Part shown: positions 52,660 to 62,101 of the stretch, in pieces | How the letters are laid out: each line of letters starts with the position of its first letter | Numbering within the stretch: the stretch's first letter is position 1 | NCBI GenBank assembly: GCA_903905505.1 | Contig: CAIVGL010000004.1 | Coordinates: 1 to 64,000, forward strand | Length of the DNA: 64,000 bases | Origin: an uncultured Bacteroidia bacterium | GTDB lineage: Bacteria; Bacteroidota; Bacteroidia; Bacteroidales; Prolixibacteraceae | Direction: 5' to 3' | Notes under the pieces: generated by a model | What the model saw: the letters and a program-made list of their open reading frames with translations, nothing else | The model's database searches: none | What the model was told of the DNA's origin: nothing | Translations under genes and position numbers: made by a program

Positions 52660-52732
52660 GGCCCCGTAGCTTAATGGATAGAGCATCTGACTACGGATCA
52701 GAAGGTTGGGGGTTCGACTCTCTCCGGGGTCA
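52660..52732 (+). tRNA. tRNA-Arg (anticodon ACG)
   Basis: 73 nt cloverleaf: acceptor GGCCCCG/CGGGGTC (one G-U pair) with discriminator A, D stem GCTT/GAGC, anticodon stem TCTGA/TCAGA around the loop CTACGGA, so anticodon ACG (Arg CGN), variable loop AGGTT, T loop TTCGACT. CCA is not encoded. Its 3' half recurs in decayed form at 59447-59483, which suggests use as an integration site. Confidence 0.95.
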
Positions 52733-52734
52733 CA

Positions 52735-52773
52735 AATGCCACTGTAATCAATTGATTATCAGTGGCATTTTTT
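52735..52773 (+). terminator. Terminator of tRNA-Arg
   Basis: AATGCCACTG with CAGTGGCATT and an inner palindrome TAATCAATTGATTA, followed by six T. It starts 3 nt after the tRNA. Confidence 0.9.
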
Positions 52774-53082
52774 ATTATACACACTAAAATACACACCTTT
52801 TTCCGACTGTCTGAATTGAAATTGCAATACTATTCCTCAACTTTTGCTGCTCCTTTCATATAGGACCGATACTTATTTCACGTGCAGGGAACGATTATAA
52901 AGTTGTTTATTTTGCAACATTGCAAACTTTGCAAAGTCTGCAAATTACAAGGTTTTATAATATCCTACTCTAAATTTTAGCCCCCAAGCTAACGCATAGT
53001 CTATTTCAATGCATCAGTAGGGATAAGATTCAAAGCGCTTTATTTTGTGCGATTCAAGACCTTCTGAATCTCCTCTTTCCCC
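52774..53082. other. Left end of the island: iterated GCAA motifs, no gene
   Basis: 309 bp without a supportable gene. It contains four GCAA units at 52914, 52922, 52931 and 52940 (steps 8, 9, 9) including the 12-bp palindrome ACTTTGCAAAGT (52926-52937). Being next to a tRNA junction, these could be arm-type recombinase or excisionase sites. Confidence 0.4.
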
Positions 53083-53622
53083 TTAACCATAGCCATTATT
53101 AGTAAGGTAGTCTATTAAAATAACCCAATCATCATTAACAGGCACATGCCAGCCTGAGGGACAAACATTTTTATTCCCGTTGGTACTTGTATTTAAAGTG
53201 TACCAATTATATAGTCCACTATAAGCTGCTTTGTTCGTTTCATCATTGTTGTACCAGCAATAGGCAGGAGTTTCTAATCCATAAAGCTGTATATTATTCC
53301 AAGCAGTCTGATCAGCCACTAAAGGTATATCAGAATTATCATTATACTTGGTGCTTTTAAGGTTTTCCTTCATCCAAACCTGGGTTCCAATCCGCACTAC
53401 GTTATAAATATTACCTTCAACATCACTGATCGTTATTGGGTCAGTTGTAAAGGTCATATCACTGCCATTTGTAGTGCCAAGTGAATTATTCGCTTTTACT
53501 CTGAAGTGATAAGTAGTGCCACTGGCTAAACCTGTTATAACTGAACTTATAGTTGTGCTTATGTTACCAGCAAGTGGACTCTGTGATGCTGCAGCAGTAT
53601 TACCATAATTTGCCGTATCACA
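53083..53622 (-). pseudogene. Fragment of an Fn3 / Fib_succ_major surface protein
   Basis: Minus-strand residues from about 65 to 243 of the track ORF. An Fn3-like repeat ([27 protein letters not shown]...TYHFRVKANNSLGTTNG) is followed by the Fibrobacter major paralogous domain: DVEGNIYNVVRIGTQVWMKENLKSTKYNDN...CWYNNDE...YSGLYNWYT...CPSGWHVPVNDDWVILIDYLTNNGYG. It stops abruptly at NGYG, where family members go on with YGGSG. The N-terminal side changes at about 53620 into the antisense of a Fic gene. So both ends are lost: a remnant, not an active gene. Confidence 0.8.
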
Positions 53623-53833
53623 CTTTTTAGGCGACACATTAAAGCAAATAGAAGCAATGCCTAAAACTACATTTGACGAGATCGTAAACAAAAATGTAGA
53701 AATGAACATTGCAGACCCTTTTATGGAAGGGAATGGGAGAAGCACCAGAATATGGGTGGATTTGATATTGAAAAAGCGGCTCAAGAAATGCGTTAATTGG
53801 AGTAAAATAAGCAAGCAAAACTACCTGAATGCA
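53618..53833 (+). pseudogene. Fic-domain protein fragment
   Basis: Plus-strand reading [71 protein letters not shown] is the core of a Fic AMP-transferase. The motif HPFxEGNGRxxR reads [12 protein letters not shown], so the catalytic His is Asp. Both flanks are missing: the left end joins the Fn3/Fib_succ remnant, the right end joins IS3 sequence at 53833/53834. The track ORF 53657-53860 covers most of it; its last residues are antisense IS sequence. Inactive remnant. Confidence 0.82.
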
Positions 53834-54475
53834 ACGGGTTATTTCAATATTGCGAAGTAAGTAAGGATAAAGCTTATGCTCCTCGTTACGCTGAGTGGTT
53901 CTTGGCTTAGGATATATTGCTGTAATACGCATCTCTTTGTAATAACGGTCTATCCGTTTACGGCTAACACAAAAGCCCCGTTTATCCAAATGAACCTTCA
54001 TTCTGCGAATCCCATAGTAAGGCGTTATTAAGTACTGCCTATCTATGGCTTCCTTGACACATAACTCATCATATTTCAAAGAATGTTTTGACTCATAATA
54101 GAGTCCACTTCGGCTTAAACTAAGAAATATACATTGTTTAACAAGGCTTAAAAGGGGATGTCCTCGTTCGACCATTTCTCGGCGTACTATTTGCCCTGTA
54201 TTTGATTCCACTTTTTTTTTTAAGAACTCATTCTCTATCTCCAACTGCCCTATCTTACGGAAAAGATTATCCGTCTCGTGCTCCTTCTGCTTCTCTTCAG
54301 GTATATTTGGTTTACTAAAGGTAGCGATAGCACTGTCCAAATATTGTTTTTTCCAAATATTAACCTGATTTGGATGAACCTCATAAAAACTGGCAATCTC
54401 GCTGATGGTTTTAAAACCTTTTACTGCCTCAATTGCTACTTTGGCTTTTAATTCCGCTGAAATTTTCTTTCAAAT
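53834..54475 (-). mobile_element. Truncated IS3-family transposase remnant
   Basis: Minus strand. OrfA HTH: KKISAELKAKVAIEAVKGFKTISEIASFYEVHPNQVNIWKKQYLD, preceded by a stop with no usable start. It reads on without a break into the coiled linker (LFRKIGQLEIENEFLKKKV) and the OrfB N-terminal part (SLSRSGLYYESKH...YGIRRMKVHLDKRGFCVSRKRIDRYYKEM...LLRNIEITR). At the point where RPNQVWATDITYI would begin the DDE core, it stops and Fic sequence starts. The catalytic core is gone, so the element cannot move. Minus-strand sequence ahead of OrfA (to about 54555) may include the old terminal repeat. Confidence 0.85.
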
Positions 54476-54784
54476 AATCCTACTGTTTTTAAAGTGTATA
54501 AATTTAATTGTTTTACACCTTAAACAGCTGTCCTAAATATGGGTTACATTATAGTAACCGGTGGTAAAAAGACCAAAGAAACAAGAGCCCTGCAAGGGTT
54601 CAACCCCACGGGGCTAAGTTTATGACCTTAGTTTTATTCCGTGAGTTTAACTCACGATTATTGATCCACCAGATTGACGGATCCGCTTTCAGGGATAAAA
54701 ATACTGACGTCAGCTTAACGAAATGTCATTACATTATTAATTGATAATTGAGCATAACCACAAGACCATCAAGGCAGTAAAGAC
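54476..54784. other. Non-coding spacer with inverted repeats
   Basis: 309 bp with no gene. Contains GGTTAC-N6-GTAACC (54542-54559), a compound hairpin AGCCCTG..GGGTTCAACCC..CGGGGCT (54586-54615) and CGTGAGTT-T-AACTCACG (54640-54656), an operator-like repeat about 130 bp from the end of the DapA-like gene. Confidence 0.5.
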
Positions 54785-55873
54785 TTACCCTTTAACGGGT
54801 TCAATACCTATCCTTTCGCACCATCCCAAAAATACCTTGTATGTTTCATCAAGTCCGTTGATCTGTTTTTTTGTCAATGGCCTCTTTGATTTCCTGGTGA
54901 TTAATTCTATTGGCAATCCTCTTTTTTGTAAAAAATATTTTGAACTTAACGGATAATTTTGTCCTATCACCACTTCTGTTTTTGTTAACTGCTCCTGGAT
55001 GTATTTCACGTCATTCAGCTTATCGGGATTGGTGGCGTTGTTGCACATCCACACCAAAATCTCAGGATAAAAATTTCCCGAGATAGCCGACATCCCTTTG
55101 GCTCCCGCCTGAAGTGATCTCATTGTATTAGCGGTGCAGGCATCGTAAAATTCCAATTTACTGTTTTTTGCGAGATCAATTTTAGCTTTTACCCTGTCGA
55201 AAGAGATAGTGGTATCTTTATGGTAGATCAGTCGGTTTGTTCCCAGTAAATATTCAAACACATAAGGGGTGATAATTCTTTTGTATGGCAGGGGGCATTC
55301 GTAGGTCCCCATCGGTATGTTGTCAGTAAGCTTAAAAAACTTTTCAAAATTATTGATCAGTACCTCATCACTCTCTCTTCGTTTGGCGAAATGGCCTGTT
55401 ATCATTATGACGGCATCGACTCCTGTTTGATAAATTTTCCTTGCAAACTCTGCTTTCTGCTCAAGGGAATCGCCGAAGGAGCCGGTACTCACCAACGACA
55501 TCGCGCCATTAACACGTTTAACAACATGTTTGGTCACAGCTAACCGCTCCTCATCGCTCAGGAAATACATTTCGCTGCTTTGGCAATTGGCGAAATATCC
55601 TTTTACCCCGGCTGCCTGGTAAAAATCAGTCAGGCTTGAAAGTCCGTCAAAATCAATCATCCCGTTTTGTTTGTACGGGGTAATCATTACAGGAACAAAT
55701 TTTTTGTCACTAAGAATAGGGAGAGCGGCATTTGTGCTTTTCAATAAGCCGGGGTGACTTTCATTCCCTGCGAATACTTTTTCACCGAGGCCTGCTGCAA
55801 GAGCAATGCCTACAGTACCTGCTGTAATTTTTTCTAAAAAAAGCCGTCGCGATGGTTTAGTTTCTTGATTCAT
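54785..55873 (-). CDS. Tat-exported DapA/NanA-family (dihydrodipicolinate synthase-like) aldolase
   Basis: 362 aa. KPSRRLFLEKITAGTVGIALAAGLGEKVFA is a twin-arginine signal. The body is a DapA-type barrel: FVPVMITPYKQNGMIDFDGLSSLTDFYQAAGVKGYFANCQSSEMYFLSDEERLAVTK (family motif with Ser replacing the usual GTTGE), TYECPLPYKR with the active-site Tyr, and LIYHKDTTISFDRV with the Schiff-base Lys in HKDTT. Exported members of this pyruvate-aldolase family are uncommon. The base composition looks more GC-rich than the flanking core genes, suggesting transfer. Intact, the only complete metabolic gene in the island. Substrate unknown; a keto-acid sugar such as a sialic-acid-like compound is possible. 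Confidence 0.82.
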   Translation of the reverse strand: MNQETKPSRRLFLEKITAGTVGIALAAGLGEKVFAGNESHPGLLKSTNAALPILSDKKFVPVMITPYKQNGMIDFDGLSSLTDFYQAAGVKGYFANCQSSEMYFLSDEERLAVTKHVVKRVNGAMSLVSTGSFGDSLEQKAEFARKIYQTGVDAVIMITGHFAKRRESDEVLINNFEKFFKLTDNIPMGTYECPLPYKRIITPYVFEYLLGTNRLIYHKDTTISFDRVKAKIDLAKNSKLEFYDACTANTMRSLQAGAKGMSAISGNFYPEILVWMCNNATNPDKLNDVKYIQEQLTKTEVVIGQNYPLSSKYFLQKRGLPIELITRKSKRPLTKKQINGLDETYKVFLGWCERIGIEPVKG

Positions 55874-56123
55874 CAGTGGATAATTTGTTATTTAATTGCG
55901 TGATTGCCTGTCCCAATTTATCGGGAGAACACCTGTGTTATTTTGTCCCGTGTATGCGAAGCGCCGAATCATGGGTGTTTCATAAGTTTTACATTTTACA
56001 CCTAAGTATTTGCCGATTCAAAAAAAAATAATTTAATATATAGATTTGTAAGGTTCTGCTGAAATTGAGGTATTGCCAGAGGTAAAACTAGCTATTATTT
56101 ATTAGATTTGAGGTATTAATAAA
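55874..56123. other. Intergenic spacer between divergent island genes
   Basis: About 250 bp, AT-rich. A TAGATTTG (-7-like, plus) at 56103-56110 precedes the DUF5916 remnant. Nothing else recognised. Confidence 0.35.
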
Positions 56124-57453
56124 ATGACCAGACAGCATTTAGCTCACTTTTCACTTAGCCAACATAAAATGACCAAATGTGTTTCAAATTTTGGGTCAAT
56201 AGTTATCTTGCTATTTATCATTACGAACACTTTTATCCCAGATTGCTTTGGTCAGAATAATGAACCAACAGTAAAAAAAACGGGTTTATACTACATCCCG
56301 GCTTGTGACTGGCAGACCTGTGATTGACGGAAAACTCGATGATAAATTATGGAAGGCTGTTACATGGGCCGGCAATTACACGCAATGGATTCCAAAAGAG
56401 GGTGGCAAACCCAGCCATCCGACTGAATTAAATATTCAATACGACGACAAGTATATTTTTGTCGCCTTTCGCGCTTATGATGACCGGGATAAGATCCTGA
56501 AAATGGCAGGACCCCGCGATGAATTCGTCGGTGATGTAGTTGGAATCGCGTTTGACAGTTATCACGATTACCGCACGGGCTTTGAGTTTTCAGTTACGGC
56601 ATGGGGTCAGAAATGTGATCTGATTAAATATAATCCGGCAAGAAACGATCTTAACTGGAATCCTGTCTGGAAAGTAAAAGTTGGAATGGAGGACTCAGCC
56701 TGGGTTGCAGAGATGCAGATTCCGCTCAGTCAATTGCGCTTCAGCGGACAAGATGAAAAGGTTTGGGGAATGCATACCTCAAGAAATATCTATCGTCTTC
56801 AGGAATACAGCAACTGGGAGATTCAAACCAAGAAAGGACCCGGAGAGATTTACAATTACGGTATATTAAAGGGTATTAAAGGGATAAAGAAATCACAGCG
56901 ACTCGAAATCATGCCTTTTACTCTTGGAAGCTTTGAGCCGACGAAAAATGAACCGGCAAATCCATTTAGTAATAAAGGCAGAAGTTGGGGAGGCACCATC
57001 GGGTTAGATGCAAAAATTGGCCTTTCAAGTCATTTCACTGTTGATCTGACAATAAATCCGGATTTTGGTCAGGTGGAATCTGATCCATCAGTTTTAAACC
57101 TTTCAGCTTACGAGACTTTCTATGTCGAGAAACGCCCTTTTTTCACAGAAGGGTCATTTATCTTTGATTATAATATTAATAATCAGAGTCTTTTTTATTC
57201 ACGTCGTGTCGGACATTCTCCCTCGCTGAAAATAAATCCAAATGATAATCTTTTCGTAAAATCACCTATTAATACAACTATTCTAAGTGCAATCAAGTTG
57301 AGCGGAACAACCTCAAAAGGATTAACCGTTGGTATGATACAAAGTTTTACTGCGAATGAATATGCAAAACTTATTGATTCTGACGGAAACGCGAGCTCCC
57401 GGAAAATTGAACCGCTAACGGTTGGCGGCTTAAAGAAAGTGCGGAATAAATAA
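56124..57453 (+). pseudogene. CBM9/DUF5916 outer-membrane-type protein, frameshifted and truncated
   Basis: Reading frame 1 (56124) gives a signal-bearing N-terminus and runs off frame at an A8 tract (56273-56280). In the other frame the sequence continues as RVYTTSRLVTGRPVIDGKLDDKLWKAVTWAGNY, the CBM9-like domain opening, so a one-base shift broke the gene. Then come FVAFRAYD, GIAFDSYHDYRTGFEFSVTAWG, WVAEMQIPLSQLRF, WGMHTSRNIYR and INPDFGQVESDPSVLNLSAYETFYVEKRPFFTEGS, all DUF5916. It ends near IEPLTVGGLKKVRNK, only half the 750-850 aa of the family, where it abuts an integrase remnant. Confidence 0.85.
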
Positions 57454-58074
57454 CCACTCACTTTCTTAACCTCAATAGCACGATTTATTAGGGTTTTAAA
57501 AATAATTAGATTCAAGTTAATTGTCCTAGGATGTAATTTCGCTAGTTTAATTCTCTGGTTCATTAATGAATGGAGATGGGCCTCATACTTGGATAGAAAT
57601 GAAGTAGAAAGCTCCGAGAATAAGAGGTCTCTTCTTTTGCTTTTTTTTAAAAACACTTCCAGCTTGTTACAGAAACCATTGTATTTTTTGAAATTCCTAT
57701 AACCTCCCTCGTTAAAGATGTCTTTGGTCCTTTGTTTGGCAAACTCCAAAAAAGAAGACGAGGATTCTACCTCATTAATAGTAGACTTGATCAATTCCTT
57801 CGTGGCTTGACCTTTGGATTTTAAATCCCTAGAGGTGTTTTTTGCTTCTTCAATCTCATTGGCAAGAGCTTCATTCCATTTTTTATGGTTTGCTTCCGAT
57901 GTCCGAATCCAGTTTCCTTGCTTCGCTTTTGGGTTAAAATTCTGCTTGCTTTTGAGTTCAATAGTCGTTTTTTTTTCGAATATGCTTCTTATCTTGAGTT
58001 ATCCGAAGAAGGATAGAATAAGTCTTATTCTTTGTAGGTCTGTTATTCAGTTCCAGGTTAAAGGTAATTCCCAT
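57452..58074 (-). pseudogene. Tyrosine recombinase (integrase) remnant, N-terminal half
   Basis: Starts at ATG 58074: MGITFNLELNNRPTKNKTYSILLRITQDKKHIRKK, an arm-DNA-binding domain, then a frameshift at an A9 tract (57968-57976), after which TTIELKSKQNFNPKAKQGNWIRTSEANHKKWNEALANEIEEAKN continues. The SAM-like core-binding domain is visible (YNGFCNKLEVFLKKSKRRDLLFSELSTSFLSKYEAHLHSL...LHPRTINLNLIIFKTLINRAIEVKK). It is cut at about 57452, before the whole catalytic domain. Upstream box TAACTTTG at 58101-58108 (minus). Probably the integrase that once mobilised this island or part of it. Confidence 0.85.
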
Positions 58075-58127
58075 AATTAAGGCATTAATATAAGGTCTAC
58101 CAAAGTTAAGAATTATTTCTTTTATTT

Positions 58128-58177
58128 GTCATATTATATTCATACATTTGCACTTGCTTAGTCATATTATAACTTTA
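58128..58177 (+). promoter_or_regulatory. Promoter and direct-repeat operator of mobile mystery protein A/B
   Basis: TTTG (58147-58150), 19 nt, TAACTTTA (58170-58177; one change from TAnnTTTG). The exact 11-bp direct repeat GTCATATTATA occurs at 58128-58138 and 58161-58171, 33 bp apart (about three helical turns), one before the -33 box and one touching the -7 box. The ATG is 6 nt after the -7 box, so the mRNA is probably leaderless. Confidence 0.7.
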
Positions 58178-58182
58178 CTATT

Positions 58183-58641
58183 ATGAGCAAAAAGACATTG
58201 CAGATACAGCAGTTGAACAGCAAAATGCTGGCTTACGCCAGTTTGCAAAAGGTTGTTCCACCACCTACTGGATGGATAAAGGCAATACGTAATTCATTCG
58301 GGATGACCATGTTACAGCTTGGAAACCGCCTTTCTATTACCAAACAAAGTGTGCAAGATATTGAGCGGAGGGAAAAAGATGGCTCTATTACAATCAAAGC
58401 ATTGCGGGAAACAGCAAGGGTATTGGATATGCAATTAGTTTACGGCTTTGTGCCTAATGATGGTTCTTTAGAATTATTGATTGAAAGAAAGGCTAAAGAA
58501 CTGGCCACTCAAATTGTAATGCGAACAAACAACACCATGAAGTTGGAAGACCAGGAGAATACCAAACAACGCATTGAAAAAGCGATACACGAACGAACCA
58601 TTAGCATCAAATCCGAAATGCCTAAAACTTTATGGGATTAG
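58183..58641 (+). CDS. Mobile mystery protein A (HTH antitoxin-like regulator)
   Basis: 152 aa. The pattern LQIQQLNSKMLAYASLQKVVPPPTGWIKAIRNSFGMTMLQLGNRLSITKQSVQDIERREKDGSITIKALRETARVLDMQLVYGFVP is diagnostic of mobile mystery protein A: an XRE-type helix-turn-helix (about 43-80) between family-specific flanks. By analogy with other HTH-Fic pairs it may neutralise and repress the Fic partner, whose start overlaps its end by 10 bp. Intact, unlike the neighbouring pseudogenes. Confidence 0.9.
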   Translation: MSKKTLQIQQLNSKMLAYASLQKVVPPPTGWIKAIRNSFGMTMLQLGNRLSITKQSVQDIERREKDGSITIKALRETARVLDMQLVYGFVPNDGSLELLIERKAKELATQIVMRTNNTMKLEDQENTKQRIEKAIHERTISIKSEMPKTLWD

Positions 58642-59228
58642 ATTTAGACTACATCAACGGACAAACACCGCTGGAAGAAGATGAGAAAGAAGGGCTGCTT
58701 ATTCCTACTATAGCTACCCGTGGCGAATTAGATGAATTTGAGCAGCAGAATATTGAACAAGTTGTATTGTGGTCGCTAAACCGCTCTTTTAAAGCAGATA
58801 ATGTGTTTACCGAAGAATTTTTAAAAGCGGTTCACAAACGGATGTATGGCAACGTTTGGGCATGGGCTGGAGAATTTAGAAAAACAAATAAAAATATTGG
58901 CGTAGACAAATGGCAAATACCAACGGAGCTACGAGCATTACTGGATGATGTAAAATTTTGGTATTCCAATAACACCTATAGCCCGGATGAATGCACCATT
59001 CGTTTTAAGCATCGTTTGGTAAGCATACATTGTTTTCCAAATGGTAACGGCAGGCATAGCAGACTAATCGCAGATATCGTGATTGAGAAAATTTACAAGC
59101 AGTTACATTATAGTTGGGGTGCAGCAAATTTAGCACAACAAGGCGACCAACGCACCACATATCTCAATGCAATTAGGGCAGCAGATGCTGGAGACATTCA
59201 GCCGCTAATAAACTTTGCAAGATCATAA
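58632..59228 (+). CDS. Mobile mystery protein B (Fic/DOC-family)
   Basis: 198 aa. GLDLDYINGQTPLEEDEKEGLLIPTIATRGELDEFEQQNI is the family opening (about 1-40), VWAWAGEFRKTNKNIGVD follows, and the Fic motif is complete: HCFPNGNGRHSRLIADI (HxFxxGNGRxxR). Fic enzymes transfer AMP or another nucleotide phosphate to target hydroxyls. The N-terminal TRGELDEFEQQNI might hold an inhibitory helix, but no clear (S/T)xxxE(G/N) is certain. Translationally coupled to the HTH partner. Toxin-like role inferred; targets unknown. Confidence 0.9.
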   Translation: MGLDLDYINGQTPLEEDEKEGLLIPTIATRGELDEFEQQNIEQVVLWSLNRSFKADNVFTEEFLKAVHKRMYGNVWAWAGEFRKTNKNIGVDKWQIPTELRALLDDVKFWYSNNTYSPDECTIRFKHRLVSIHCFPNGNGRHSRLIADIVIEKIYKQLHYSWGAANLAQQGDQRTTYLNAIRAADAGDIQPLINFARS

Positions 59229-59605: not shown

Positions 59606-62101
59606 CTATGGATGAGTCGTGAAAGAAAATTCAGACCCATAGGTTGTCCCGTGACTACTAACCACATAAGATCTCACATGATAAGTGACGTTCGGCGATA
59701 GACCAGTCATATTGCTTACAAAAGTTCCCAAGCCAGACCCATCGACAGTTTTTGAGTTTGCCGTAGTTGGATTTGACGAAGTATTCCAGCAGACACCCCT
59801 GGAGGTGATAGCAAATCCACCATCGTTAAAGACAATACCCCCGCAGACTGCTGATGTAGCCATAATCTGAGTAACCAATTCTGTCATGATTACAGCCCCT
59901 TCGGAAGAATCGACAACATACGTCACATCATTACCATACGAAGTACCCACACTATTAACAGCATATGCTCTAATGTGGTAGGTGCCACCGATCTGAAGAC
60001 TAGTAAGGGTGCTCGTAAATATTCCCGAACCTGATCCATCAGTGGTCTTTGAATCTGCCAACGTTGGATTCGGACTCATGCTCCAACAAATACCCCGCGA
60101 GGTAACAGTTGCACCACCATTATTGGTAATATTTCCACCTGAAGTTGCGGAGTTCATATCAACCACGGCCCCAGCAGTAGTCGTTAGCGTAGCCAAACTA
60201 GTTGTTTTAAACGTCACTTCCTCACCATAGGAGGTACCTGAAGAGGTTATTGCATATGCTCTTAGGTAATAAGTAGTCCCAGAAGTTAGACCTGTAATTG
60301 AACTACCATATGAGCCTATTCCTGTCGATGAATCAACCAATTTAGAGCCAGCCGTTGTAGGGCCAGAACTTGTACTCCAGCATACTCCTCGCTGAGTTAC
60401 TGATAAACCCCCATCGGTGGCAATAATACCTCCGCTAATTACCGTAGTTGACCCTAGATTACTTGGAAATGCGGTTGAAATAAGAAGAGCAGTATTGCGA
60501 AACGAAATTTCGTTCCCATAAAATGTACCATAGATGCTGGTTGCATAAGCTCTAACATAATACGTTGAGCTTGTTTGGATCAATCCAGTCATGTTACTCA
60601 CATATGACCCTACACCCGTACTACTATCCACGGTTTTTGAGTTAGCTGTTGTAGGTCCAGAAGAGAGACCCCAGCAGATTCCTCTAGTCGTAGTAACTCC
60701 ACGATCATCCGTGATATTACCTCCACCGACAGCTGTAGTACTGGTTAACCAGGCGACATTGCTTGTCGTCAATAGCGGTGTTGGAGTCAAGGTGGTAAAC
60801 GTGACAACCGCACCATAAGCTGTTCCAGCACTGTTCGTCGCAAAAGCTCTTGCAGAATAGGTCGTTGCTGGCAACAAAGCATTTGTAATAGTTATGTTAA
60901 ATGAAGCAGAACCGCCGATATCCTTAAAATTAGCAGAAAAAGTGTTTGGGATGTACCATTCCACTCCTTTTGTAAGATTCGAATCGCCGCCAACACTGAC
61001 AACCTTCCCTCCAAAGGTAAAAGTACCTCCAGCAGTGGCAGTGGCATAACCAGAGATAATTACAGCATCAGTGGTAACGACAGGCAAAACAACCGGCGTC
61101 TTAAATGACATTTCATTTCCATAGGCCGTTCCAATACCATTGCTTGCATAGGCTCGATAATAATAGGTGGTATTCGGCAATAAATACTTTACATCAATAC
61201 TATAACCCAAAAGACCATTGGAAAAATATGTTAATTCCGAATCTGAAGTCGTTGGATGCAAAGTGGTACTCCAGCAAACACCCCTTCCTGTTATAGCAGA
61301 CCCACCATCGTTATCCACATTACAAACTAAAGTTGCCGTAGTCCCAGTTATGAATATTGCTCCTTCAGTAGTCAAGGAAGGCAACACGGTAGCTGATGAG
61401 AATACCATTGGTGTTCCATAGAACGTACCTCTAGTATTGGTGGCATAGGCTACAACTTTATAAGAAACGCCAGCAGTAAGACCGGTTAAATTACTTATGA
61501 ATGAACCTATCCCTGAGCCATCAACCGTTTTGTTATCAGCGATTGTTGGATTATTTCCAGATGTAGTCCAACATATCCCACGGGCCGTAATCGGCACTCC
61601 CCCATCGCTCGTAATGTTACCTCCACCGATGGCTGTGGTTGCCGTTATTCCACTTATCACTGAAGTATTTAGTGTTGGATCGGTTAAGCCAATTGTTGTA
61701 AAAGAAATTGAAGTAGTGCTATATTCATATCTTCCATCTGCATAACGGATATAAACGCTAGTAGTATAATGAGTTGAAGGTGTCAATCCGGTAAGTTTAA
61801 CATGCCCACTCACAGAAGAAAAAGAGGTGGAAAGTACGAGATGAGAGCCTGCTACGGTCGGTTTAGCAACTGATGTTGGGTCTACAACTTTCCAACAGAC
61901 ACCAAATTCATTATATTCTTCACTTCCTGCGGTAACCGAAATGGTTAATCCAGCAGACGTATAGGTTATGGAATCTGCCACCGATATACTAAAAAGTGGT
62001 TCCTCAACAAGTGGTCCAGGACTAGACGCACAACCAAAATTGACCAATAGACTAACAACGAAAGAAATTAGCAACAAAGGGAAAGCCCGAAACTTATTCA
62101 T
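59606..62101 (-). CDS. Eight-repeat Fn3-like surface (lipo)protein
   Basis: 831 aa. N-terminus MNKFRAFPLLLISFVVSLLVNFGCASS: a signal with Cys after a hydrophobic core; NFGC is a poor but possible lipobox. The rest is eight tandem units of about 90-100 aa, each with the pattern T(A/T)xxGGNIxxDGGxxxTxRGVCWSTSxxPTxxxSKTxDGSGxGxFxSxxTGLxxxTTYYVRAYAxNxxGTxYGxExxFxT, like the Fn3-type units of many Bacteroidota surface proteins. Units 5-8 are closest to each other; units 1 and 4 are most divergent. No C-terminal sorting domain, enzyme domain or anchor is seen. It may bind glycans or mediate adhesion. Opposite-strand ORFs in the track are repeat shadows. Confidence 0.85.
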   Translation of the reverse strand: MNKFRAFPLLLISFVVSLLVNFGCASSPGPLVEEPLFSISVADSITYTSAGLTISVTAGSEEYNEFGVCWKVVDPTSVAKPTVAGSHLVLSTSFSSVSGHVKLTGLTPSTHYTTSVYIRYADGRYEYSTTSISFTTIGLTDPTLNTSVISGITATTAIGGGNITSDGGVPITARGICWTTSGNNPTIADNKTVDGSGIGSFISNLTGLTAGVSYKVVAYATNTRGTFYGTPMVFSSATVLPSLTTEGAIFITGTTATLVCNVDNDGGSAITGRGVCWSTTLHPTTSDSELTYFSNGLLGYSIDVKYLLPNTTYYYRAYASNGIGTAYGNEMSFKTPVVLPVVTTDAVIISGYATATAGGTFTFGGKVVSVGGDSNLTKGVEWYIPNTFSANFKDIGGSASFNITITNALLPATTYSARAFATNSAGTAYGAVVTFTTLTPTPLLTTSNVAWLTSTTAVGGGNITDDRGVTTTRGICWGLSSGPTTANSKTVDSSTGVGSYVSNMTGLIQTSSTYYVRAYATSIYGTFYGNEISFRNTALLISTAFPSNLGSTTVISGGIIATDGGLSVTQRGVCWSTSSGPTTAGSKLVDSSTGIGSYGSSITGLTSGTTYYLRAYAITSSGTSYGEEVTFKTTSLATLTTTAGAVVDMNSATSGGNITNNGGATVTSRGICWSMSPNPTLADSKTTDGSGSGIFTSTLTSLQIGGTYHIRAYAVNSVGTSYGNDVTYVVDSSEGAVIMTELVTQIMATSAVCGGIVFNDGGFAITSRGVCWNTSSNPTTANSKTVDGSGLGTFVSNMTGLSPNVTYHVRSYVVSSHGTTYGSEFSFTTHP

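Follow-up and report, generated by a model that had tools for sequence, protein, structure and literature searches.

A mobile mystery protein A/B pair as a predicted autorepressed Fic toxin-antitoxin module with a tandem operator array

The inhibitory motif of Fic proteins, (S/T)xxxE(G/N), and the classes into which these proteins fall have been described (PMC5651007, PMC9755527), and in class I toxin-antitoxin (TA) systems the motif is supplied by a separate partner, one tested case being AntY-FicY, in which the antitoxin gene is convergent (PMC7479194). Control of a TA operon from an array of palindromes is known from HipB, which has four operators of the form TATCCN8GGATA (PMC3376134). Among the Fic/Doc partners listed in the accessible part of a 2009 survey are AbrB, Phd and YhfG, but not Xre (PMC2701414). 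TA readings of the mobile mystery protein families A and B (MMP-A, TIGR02612; MMP-B, TIGR02613) are already in print: a TIGR02612-like neighbour of a Fic gene was called an antitoxin (PMC3936711), and TIGR02613 was counted as a Fic/Doc toxin and among the defence cargo of Tn7-like elements (PMC8649781). The literature searched, which missed much subscription literature, contained no experiment on MMP-A or MMP-B, and the subscription part may contain a previous reference to MMP-A as an inhibitor of Fic. The statement of the earlier note on this DNA that toxin status is not established still stands experimentally; new here are the sequence data that speak for an antitoxin helix within MMP-A and for a class I Fic TA system.

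The pair studied here lies in a 64-kb stretch of Bacteroidota DNA (64,000 nucleotides, hereafter the window), and its features are listed in Table 1. Both open reading frames were intact, as the earlier note had described, and the 10-bp translational overlap it reported was present. MMP-A scored 137.7 bits against the curated TIGR02612 cut-off of 122.6, and the adjacent MMP-B scored 250.9 bits against the TIGR02613 cut-off of 124.4, which places the two genes in the MMP-A/B families. The overlap is 10 bp long in 93/105 loci, 67 of them with the exact sequence given in Table 1. No natural A-B fusion was found among the collected loci; a long frame in L003 was considered as one and rejected, being MMP-A alone. 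The fold of the MMP-A helix-turn-helix (HTH) domain matches HigA and HipB weakly (E 0.05-0.4), and the source genome (G000, Bacteroidota, 2.9 Mb, 129 contigs) carries a single MMP-A, that of the window.

Table 1 Features of the MMP-A/MMP-B locus in the window and of small convergent genes beside Fic cousins at other loci
Feature	Position	Strand	Remarks
O1 remnant position, GTCTACCAAAGTTAAGAA	58095-58112	+	Overwritten in the window; intact in relatives
Predicted operator O2, 18-bp dyad GTCATATTATATTCATAC	58128-58145	+	Tandem-palindrome scan; right end enters the -7 box
Predicted Bacteroidota -7 box TACATTTG (TAnnTTTG)	58143-58150	+	Position kept in most relatives with a box
Predicted operator O3, 18-bp dyad GTCATATTATAACTTTAC	58161-58178	+	Tandem-palindrome scan; between expected start point and ATG
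MMP-A (mobile mystery protein A, 152 aa)	58183-58641	+	TIGR02612 2.6e-40; HTH_3; AF2 pLDDT 89; Cro/C1-type HTH, predicted autorepressor and predicted Fic antitoxin
Recognition helix, residues 54-62 (KQSVQDIER)	58342-58368	+	Ser56 (58348-58350) covaries with half-site base 5
Predicted Fic inhibitory motif T118-M-K-L-E122-D-Q124	58534-58554	+	C-terminal end of helix 96-121 (AF2)
MMP-A stop/MMP-B start overlap, 10 bp, ATGGGATTAG	58632-58641	+	Kept in most loci
MMP-B (mobile mystery protein B, 198 aa)	58632-59228	+	TIGR02613 7.6e-75; Pfam Fic; AF2 pLDDT 89; Fic-fold enzyme, predicted toxin
Fic motif H133-C-F-P-N137-G-N-G-R-H-S-R144	59028-59063	+	Asn at the usual Asp/Glu position
Small convergent ORF, L150	1604-2002	-	Fic inhibitory motif
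Small convergent ORF, L149	763-990	+	Fic inhibitory motif
Small convergent ORF, L151	1668-1916	-	Fic inhibitory motif
Small convergent ORF, L164	2033-2242	-	Fic inhibitory motif
Small convergent ORF, L195	1309-1485	+	Fic inhibitory motif

Upstream of MMP-A, the two identical GTCATATTATA repeats that had been noticed 33 bp apart were confirmed, as exact copies, at 58128-58138 and 58161-58171. Of the dinucleotide-resampled copies of the intergenic stretch, 0.065% contained an 11-mer repeated exactly at a spacing of 32-33 bp, and in the window the MMP-A promoter offers the sole case. For comparison, 110 loci were collected, nearly all from Bacteroidota, together with 8 Pseudomonadota plasmid pairs taken from plasmid records. 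In the region upstream of MMP-A, all pairwise combinations of 18-bp windows were scored for palindromy and mutual likeness, against a resampled control. The spacing expected by the earlier note at other MMP-A promoters recurred: among 82 dereplicated MMP-A loci drawn from two phyla, the top-scoring tandem pair of palindromes had a spacing of 33 bp in 59 loci and of 32 bp in 18 (77/82 in total), against a flat control with about 2-3% per spacing and none preferred, and all 8 Pseudomonadota plasmid loci were spaced 32-33 bp. Average palindromy over the 82 loci peaked at -87/-88, -54/-55 and -21/-22 from the start codon, so the usual array has three sites. Their consensus is GTCA(A/G)nTATAnnnTTAC, with the ideal form GTAAAGTTATAACTTTAC; in distant clades the letters differ (AACAAnnTATAnnTTGTT, ATCAGn8CTGAT, GTATn10ATAC), but symmetry and spacing are the same.

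These comparisons bear on the proposal of an operator built of bare 11-bp direct repeats. The repeats exist, but as the left portions of two 18-bp dyads, O2 and O3, which the comparison of relatives points to as the functional units, and each palindrome presumably holds one MMP-A dimer. An ordinary direct-repeat operator, with a monomer or tetramer on each 11-bp repeat, or the site of another regulator, might be read from the window alone, where the two sites agree fully on the left and are weaker palindromes on the right (palindrome scores 0.56 and 0.67); relatives, however, carry full dyads such as GTAAAGTAATAACTTTAC, GTCAGGATATAACCTTAC and AACAATTTATAAATTGTT, clades that differ in sequence keep spacing and symmetry, and the half-sites covary with residue 56 of MMP-A (see below). 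We consider that explanation highly improbable, and binding to direct repeats was rejected on the full dyads and the covariation.

The earlier note's count of two sites was right for the window, but most loci have three, and the third has been removed here by a rearrangement. The window aligns with relatives L031-L036 only to the right of 58112/58113, which puts the junction 15 bp upstream of the first repeat, and L031 carries GTAAGTCTAAAGCCTTGC at the O1 place. In the near-identical L031 and L032 the pair stands about 310 bp after tRNA-Arg(ACG), whereas in the window 5,378 bp (52735-58112) separate tRNA-Arg(ACG) (52660-52733) from the promoter, with homology resuming at 58113. The junction destroyed O1 and spared O2, O3 and the -7 box, leaving two sites where relatives have three. 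By eye, the stretch 52735-58112, which replaces the ~310 bp of relatives, holds fragments of an IS3-like transposase, a DUF5916 gene, a DapA-like enzyme with a signal peptide and a tyrosine recombinase. A tRNA gene also lies within about 450 bp of the pair in four other genomes (L040, L049, L054 and L063; Leu, Asn, Met and Pro). Downstream of MMP-B, an 831-aa secreted-looking protein with repeated fibronectin-like units (59606-62101, minus strand) is common to the window and L032 at about 97%.

With operator O1 gone and truncated recombinase, transposase and DUF5916 genes apparently present in the adjoining 5.4-kb stretch, the pair might be taken for a decayed, inactive passenger among broken genes. 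Against this, dN/dS was 0.04-0.10 for both genes in every computable comparison with relatives, which indicates strong purifying selection on MMP-A and MMP-B; the -7 box, O2, O3 and the gene overlap are all intact, and L031/L032 retain the pair at 98-99% protein identity without the 5.4-kb stretch. Decay therefore seems to us very hard to credit.

The -7 promoter consensus of Bacteroidota is TAnnTTTG. A box of the form TAnnTTT[GA] was found 31-32 nt before the start codon in 42/74 Bacteroidota loci, which is 42/49 of the box-bearing relatives, and the window's box ends 32 nt before the ATG. This distance predicts a 5'-UTR of about 25 nt, so that the mmpA transcript probably has a leader; the leaderless transcript once suggested was rejected on the box-to-start distance. 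The box begins inside the right end of O2, and occupancy of O2 should consequently occlude the promoter, while O3 would lie within the first transcribed bases, just downstream of the expected start point. The description of the repeats as bracketing the promoter holds only loosely, in that the second site lies just beyond the expected start but the first overlaps the beginning of the -7 box.

To which protein the sites belong is indicated by covariation. When all scored MMP-A positions were set against the nine half-site positions, residue 56 with base 5 gave the strongest association (z ~10). MMP-A proteins with Gly or Ala at residue 56 have A at base 5 in 89-90% of their half-sites; those with Ser have G in 59%, A in 23% and T in 15%. 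Nearest Ser/Gly contrasts, which are not fully independent, went in the expected direction in 20 of 22 cases, with one tie and one opposed; the tree requires at least eight Ser/Gly changes, and the direction was consistent across it. Since base 5 tracks a residue of the recognition helix, these sequence statistics indicate that MMP-A itself reads the sites. The exact operator pattern occurs in its own genome only at the MMP-A promoter, and weaker matches there, sought as a wider regulon, were no more numerous than with a reversed-pattern control. Autorepression by MMP-A at tandem sites, as the earlier note proposed, is strongly supported by the 77/82 spacing and the helix-operator covariation, and we consider it very probable. 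As in autoregulated type II TA operons under HipBA-like control, a DNA-binding domain on the antitoxin side is combined with repeated palindromic operators over the promoter.

Beyond the HTH domain, the most conserved part of MMP-A is the motif [S/T]MxLExQ at 118-124, in its tail. In the MMP-A set, L121 and E122 are present in 109/109 members, M119 and Q124 in 108/109, and Ser or Thr at 118 in 101/109, and across 38 diverse C-termini of MMP-A, taken from two phyla, M, L, E, Q and a terminal Trp do not vary. Known Fic antitoxins carry their inhibitory motif at the end of a helix, the place that the MMP-A motif has in the AF2 model (helix 96-121). The residue after Glu122 is Gly or Asn in 14/109 and mostly Asp, and the Ser/Thr place is taken by His, Gln or Asn in some members; exact fits to (S/T)xxxE(G/N) include SMALEG in L003 and TMRLEN in L117. 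Pfam and NCBIfam gave no antitoxin domain in the MMP-A tail or in the small partners described next, and a direct-coupling analysis between A and B returned noise, with 100 pairs (effective number 56) being underpowered for docking.

The same motif was met beside cousins of MMP-B, that is, Fic genes scoring below the MMP-B cut-off and without MMP-A. Small convergent ORFs that have no HTH stand beside L150 (SMALENQ), L149 (TMYIEEQ) and L151 (TMYIEEQ); no Pfam or NCBIfam family was found for these three, which look like unannotated antitoxins. In a profile comparison the small partners aligned in register with the MMP-A tail (P 0.0005), and in single-partner tests with 2000 shuffles L150 beat all, L154 all but 4 and L155 all but 2 (L154 and L155 are second fetches of the L151 and L149 loci). 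The strict form [S/T]Mx[L/I]ExQ had no other occurrence in about 10,000 ORFs (926 kb), save one broken MMP-A. Further small convergent ORFs beside L164 and L195 have the canonical SxxxEG (SARVEG and SAAIEG); they gave no match to the MMP-A tail profile above shuffles and are identified by position and motif. No such small partner was seen beside the Asn-type cousins L156-L158, and PDB sequence searches with two small partners returned chance matches only. The occurrence of the motif in HTH-less partners of Fic cousins argues for its association with the Fic enzyme rather than with the HTH. We regard it as likely, with good confidence, that the C-terminal helix of MMP-A is a Fic inhibitory helix acting in trans.

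MMP-B, for its part, has the catalytic His, GN(G) loop and two Arg of class I Fic proteins, with H133, N139 and R144 in 92/92 MMP-B and R141 in 91/92. It also has no inhibitory motif of its own, (S/T)xxxE(G/N) being absent from 81/92 members and scattered and unconserved in the other 11. The best PDB match of its AF2 model is VbhT-VbhA, with a TM score of 0.67-0.73 to VbhT, and FICD, EcFicT-EcFicA and Fic-1-AntF also match highly. The earlier description of the Fic motif as complete was overstated: the motif of AMPylating Fic proteins, HPFx(D/E)GN(G/K)R, is acidic at position 5, where MMP-B has Asn (N137, in 90/92), as do its closest cousins. AMPylation should for this reason not be assumed for MMP-B. 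No NGNGR-type Fic motif was found in the literature searched. L154, L155 and L156-L159 carry HxFxNGNGR or HPYTNGNGR, with Asn for Asp/Glu in common with MMP-B, and an Asn-type Fic subfamily that includes MMP-B and these cousins is possible.

The distribution of the two genes is unequal. Among 396 sampled Bacteroidota genomes, MMP-B exceeded its cut-off in 35 (about 9%), and all 33 uninterrupted copies over the cut-off had MMP-A directly upstream; of 40 MMP-A over the cut-off, 8 were without an uninterrupted MMP-B, five of them clear cases (G085, G169, G213, G226 and G239), two partial MMP-A and one at a contig end. The dependence of MMP-B on MMP-A in these counts suggests a toxin reliant on its antitoxin, though operon structure might by itself account for part of the pattern. 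The pair is plasmid- and island-borne, MMP-B being found on 246 of the plasmid records searched. Many of these are Agrobacterium (101 records) and Rhizobium (53) plasmids. In Ti plasmids it adjoins a DUF3991/toprim gene (L113, Agrobacterium Ti plasmid pTi_CFBP5505); in Thiothrix plasmid pTfr153 (L112) a tyrosine recombinase gene follows MMP-B after 6 bp, as if co-travelling; and in Rhodobacteraceae plasmid pSC52_4 (L115) the pair lies between two opposed IS6 family transposases beside plasmid repB and cadA and looks like composite-transposon cargo.

A simpler account would make MMP-A a transcription factor only and MMP-B a regulatory Fic protein, no toxin, that modifies a host or element protein, with MxLExQ as a structural element of a dimer contact or of a contact between dimers on the operator array. 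The operator evidence requires no toxin, Asn137 departs from the AMPylation motif, and a dependent B gene is also what simple operon structure predicts. This account does not lead one to expect the same motif in HTH-less partners beside Fic cousins, and it sits poorly with the missing cis inhibitory motif of MMP-B, with a class I toxin bound to its antitoxin as the nearest solved fold, and with the plasmid- and island-borne state of the pair; we judge it improbable. MMP-B is instead probably a toxin in some host. That the role of the pair is anti-phage (abortive) and not that of an addiction module would be compatible with the mechanism proposed below. MMP-B matches PADLOC PDC-S04 models (2.6e-22), a class of defence candidates only, TIGR02613 belongs to the Tn7-like defence cargo mentioned above (PMC8649781), and the pair occupies a tRNA-linked variable spot; yet the single native-host test found saw no protection against phage by PDC-S04 (PMC12409345), and we think this role rather unlikely. 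That none of 50,697 phage records contains MMP-B has no weight either way.

Taken together, we are fairly confident in reading the locus as a mobile, autorepressed class I Fic TA module in which MMP-A is an HTH repressor fused to a Fic-blocking helix. Cro/C1-type HTH dimers of MMP-A would bind the 18-bp palindromes 33 bp apart, a distance of about three helical turns that would set neighbouring dimers roughly on one face of the DNA, and by covering the -7 box and the early transcribed region they would repress the mmpAB operon. The MMP-A helix ending in [S/T]MxLExQ would act as the inhibitory helix in trans, its invariant Glu set against the second arginine of the MMP-B Fic motif, and loss of MMP-A would release the Fic-fold enzyme. 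Possible, though doubtful, is a wider picture of a widespread Fic TA branch whose repressor captured an inhibitory helix, with enzyme blocking coupled to occupancy of the 33-bp array, toxin level setting repression (conditional cooperativity) and the Asn-type motif serving a chemistry other than classical AMPylation. With the main reading, a named but unexplained mobile mystery family would gain a testable mechanism, covering its control region and its likely mode of inhibition. The model comes down to single residues: Ser56 for operator choice, Glu122 for neutralisation and Asn137 for chemistry.

With the class I Fic TA systems (VbhA-VbhT, EcFicA-EcFicT (YhfG-Fic), AntF-Fic-1, AntY-FicY and Fti3-Fic3), the pair shares a Fic protein without its own motif and a partner predicted to supply one, antitoxin-first overlapping genes (8 bp in Fti3-Fic3; PMC5651007) and a fold that in MMP-B best matches VbhT, then FICD, EcFicT and Fic-1. 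The known antitoxins are small, helical and HTH-less, whereas MMP-A carries its helix behind a Cro/C1 HTH with an operator array, mostly has Asp after the Glu, and faces an enzyme with Asn at motif position 5. In CdFic of Clostridioides difficile (PDB 4x2c), the Fic core aligns to residues 25-170 of MMP-B; the motif of CdFic and other class II Fic proteins is in cis, N-terminal to the Fic core (S31/E35 mutant), while in MMP it comes from the upstream gene. CccR of Yersinia pseudotuberculosis (PMC9755527) likewise combines Fic activity with HTH autorepression at palindromes, but as one secreted protein with a C-terminal HTH, whereas in MMP the two functions lie on separate proteins and the HTH belongs to the predicted inhibitor. 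HipBA also has a Cro/Xre HTH antitoxin on spaced palindromes over its own promoter, and HipB, one of the weak fold matches of the MMP-A HTH, shares a conserved C-terminal Trp with it; its toxin, however, is a kinase and not a Fic protein, it has no Fic inhibitory helix, and its O1-O2 spacing, counted on the published oligonucleotide, is 28 bp against 33 in MMP. On this reading, Fic inhibition in trans and the HipB-like promoter array, two designs of TA system, would be joined in one small protein.
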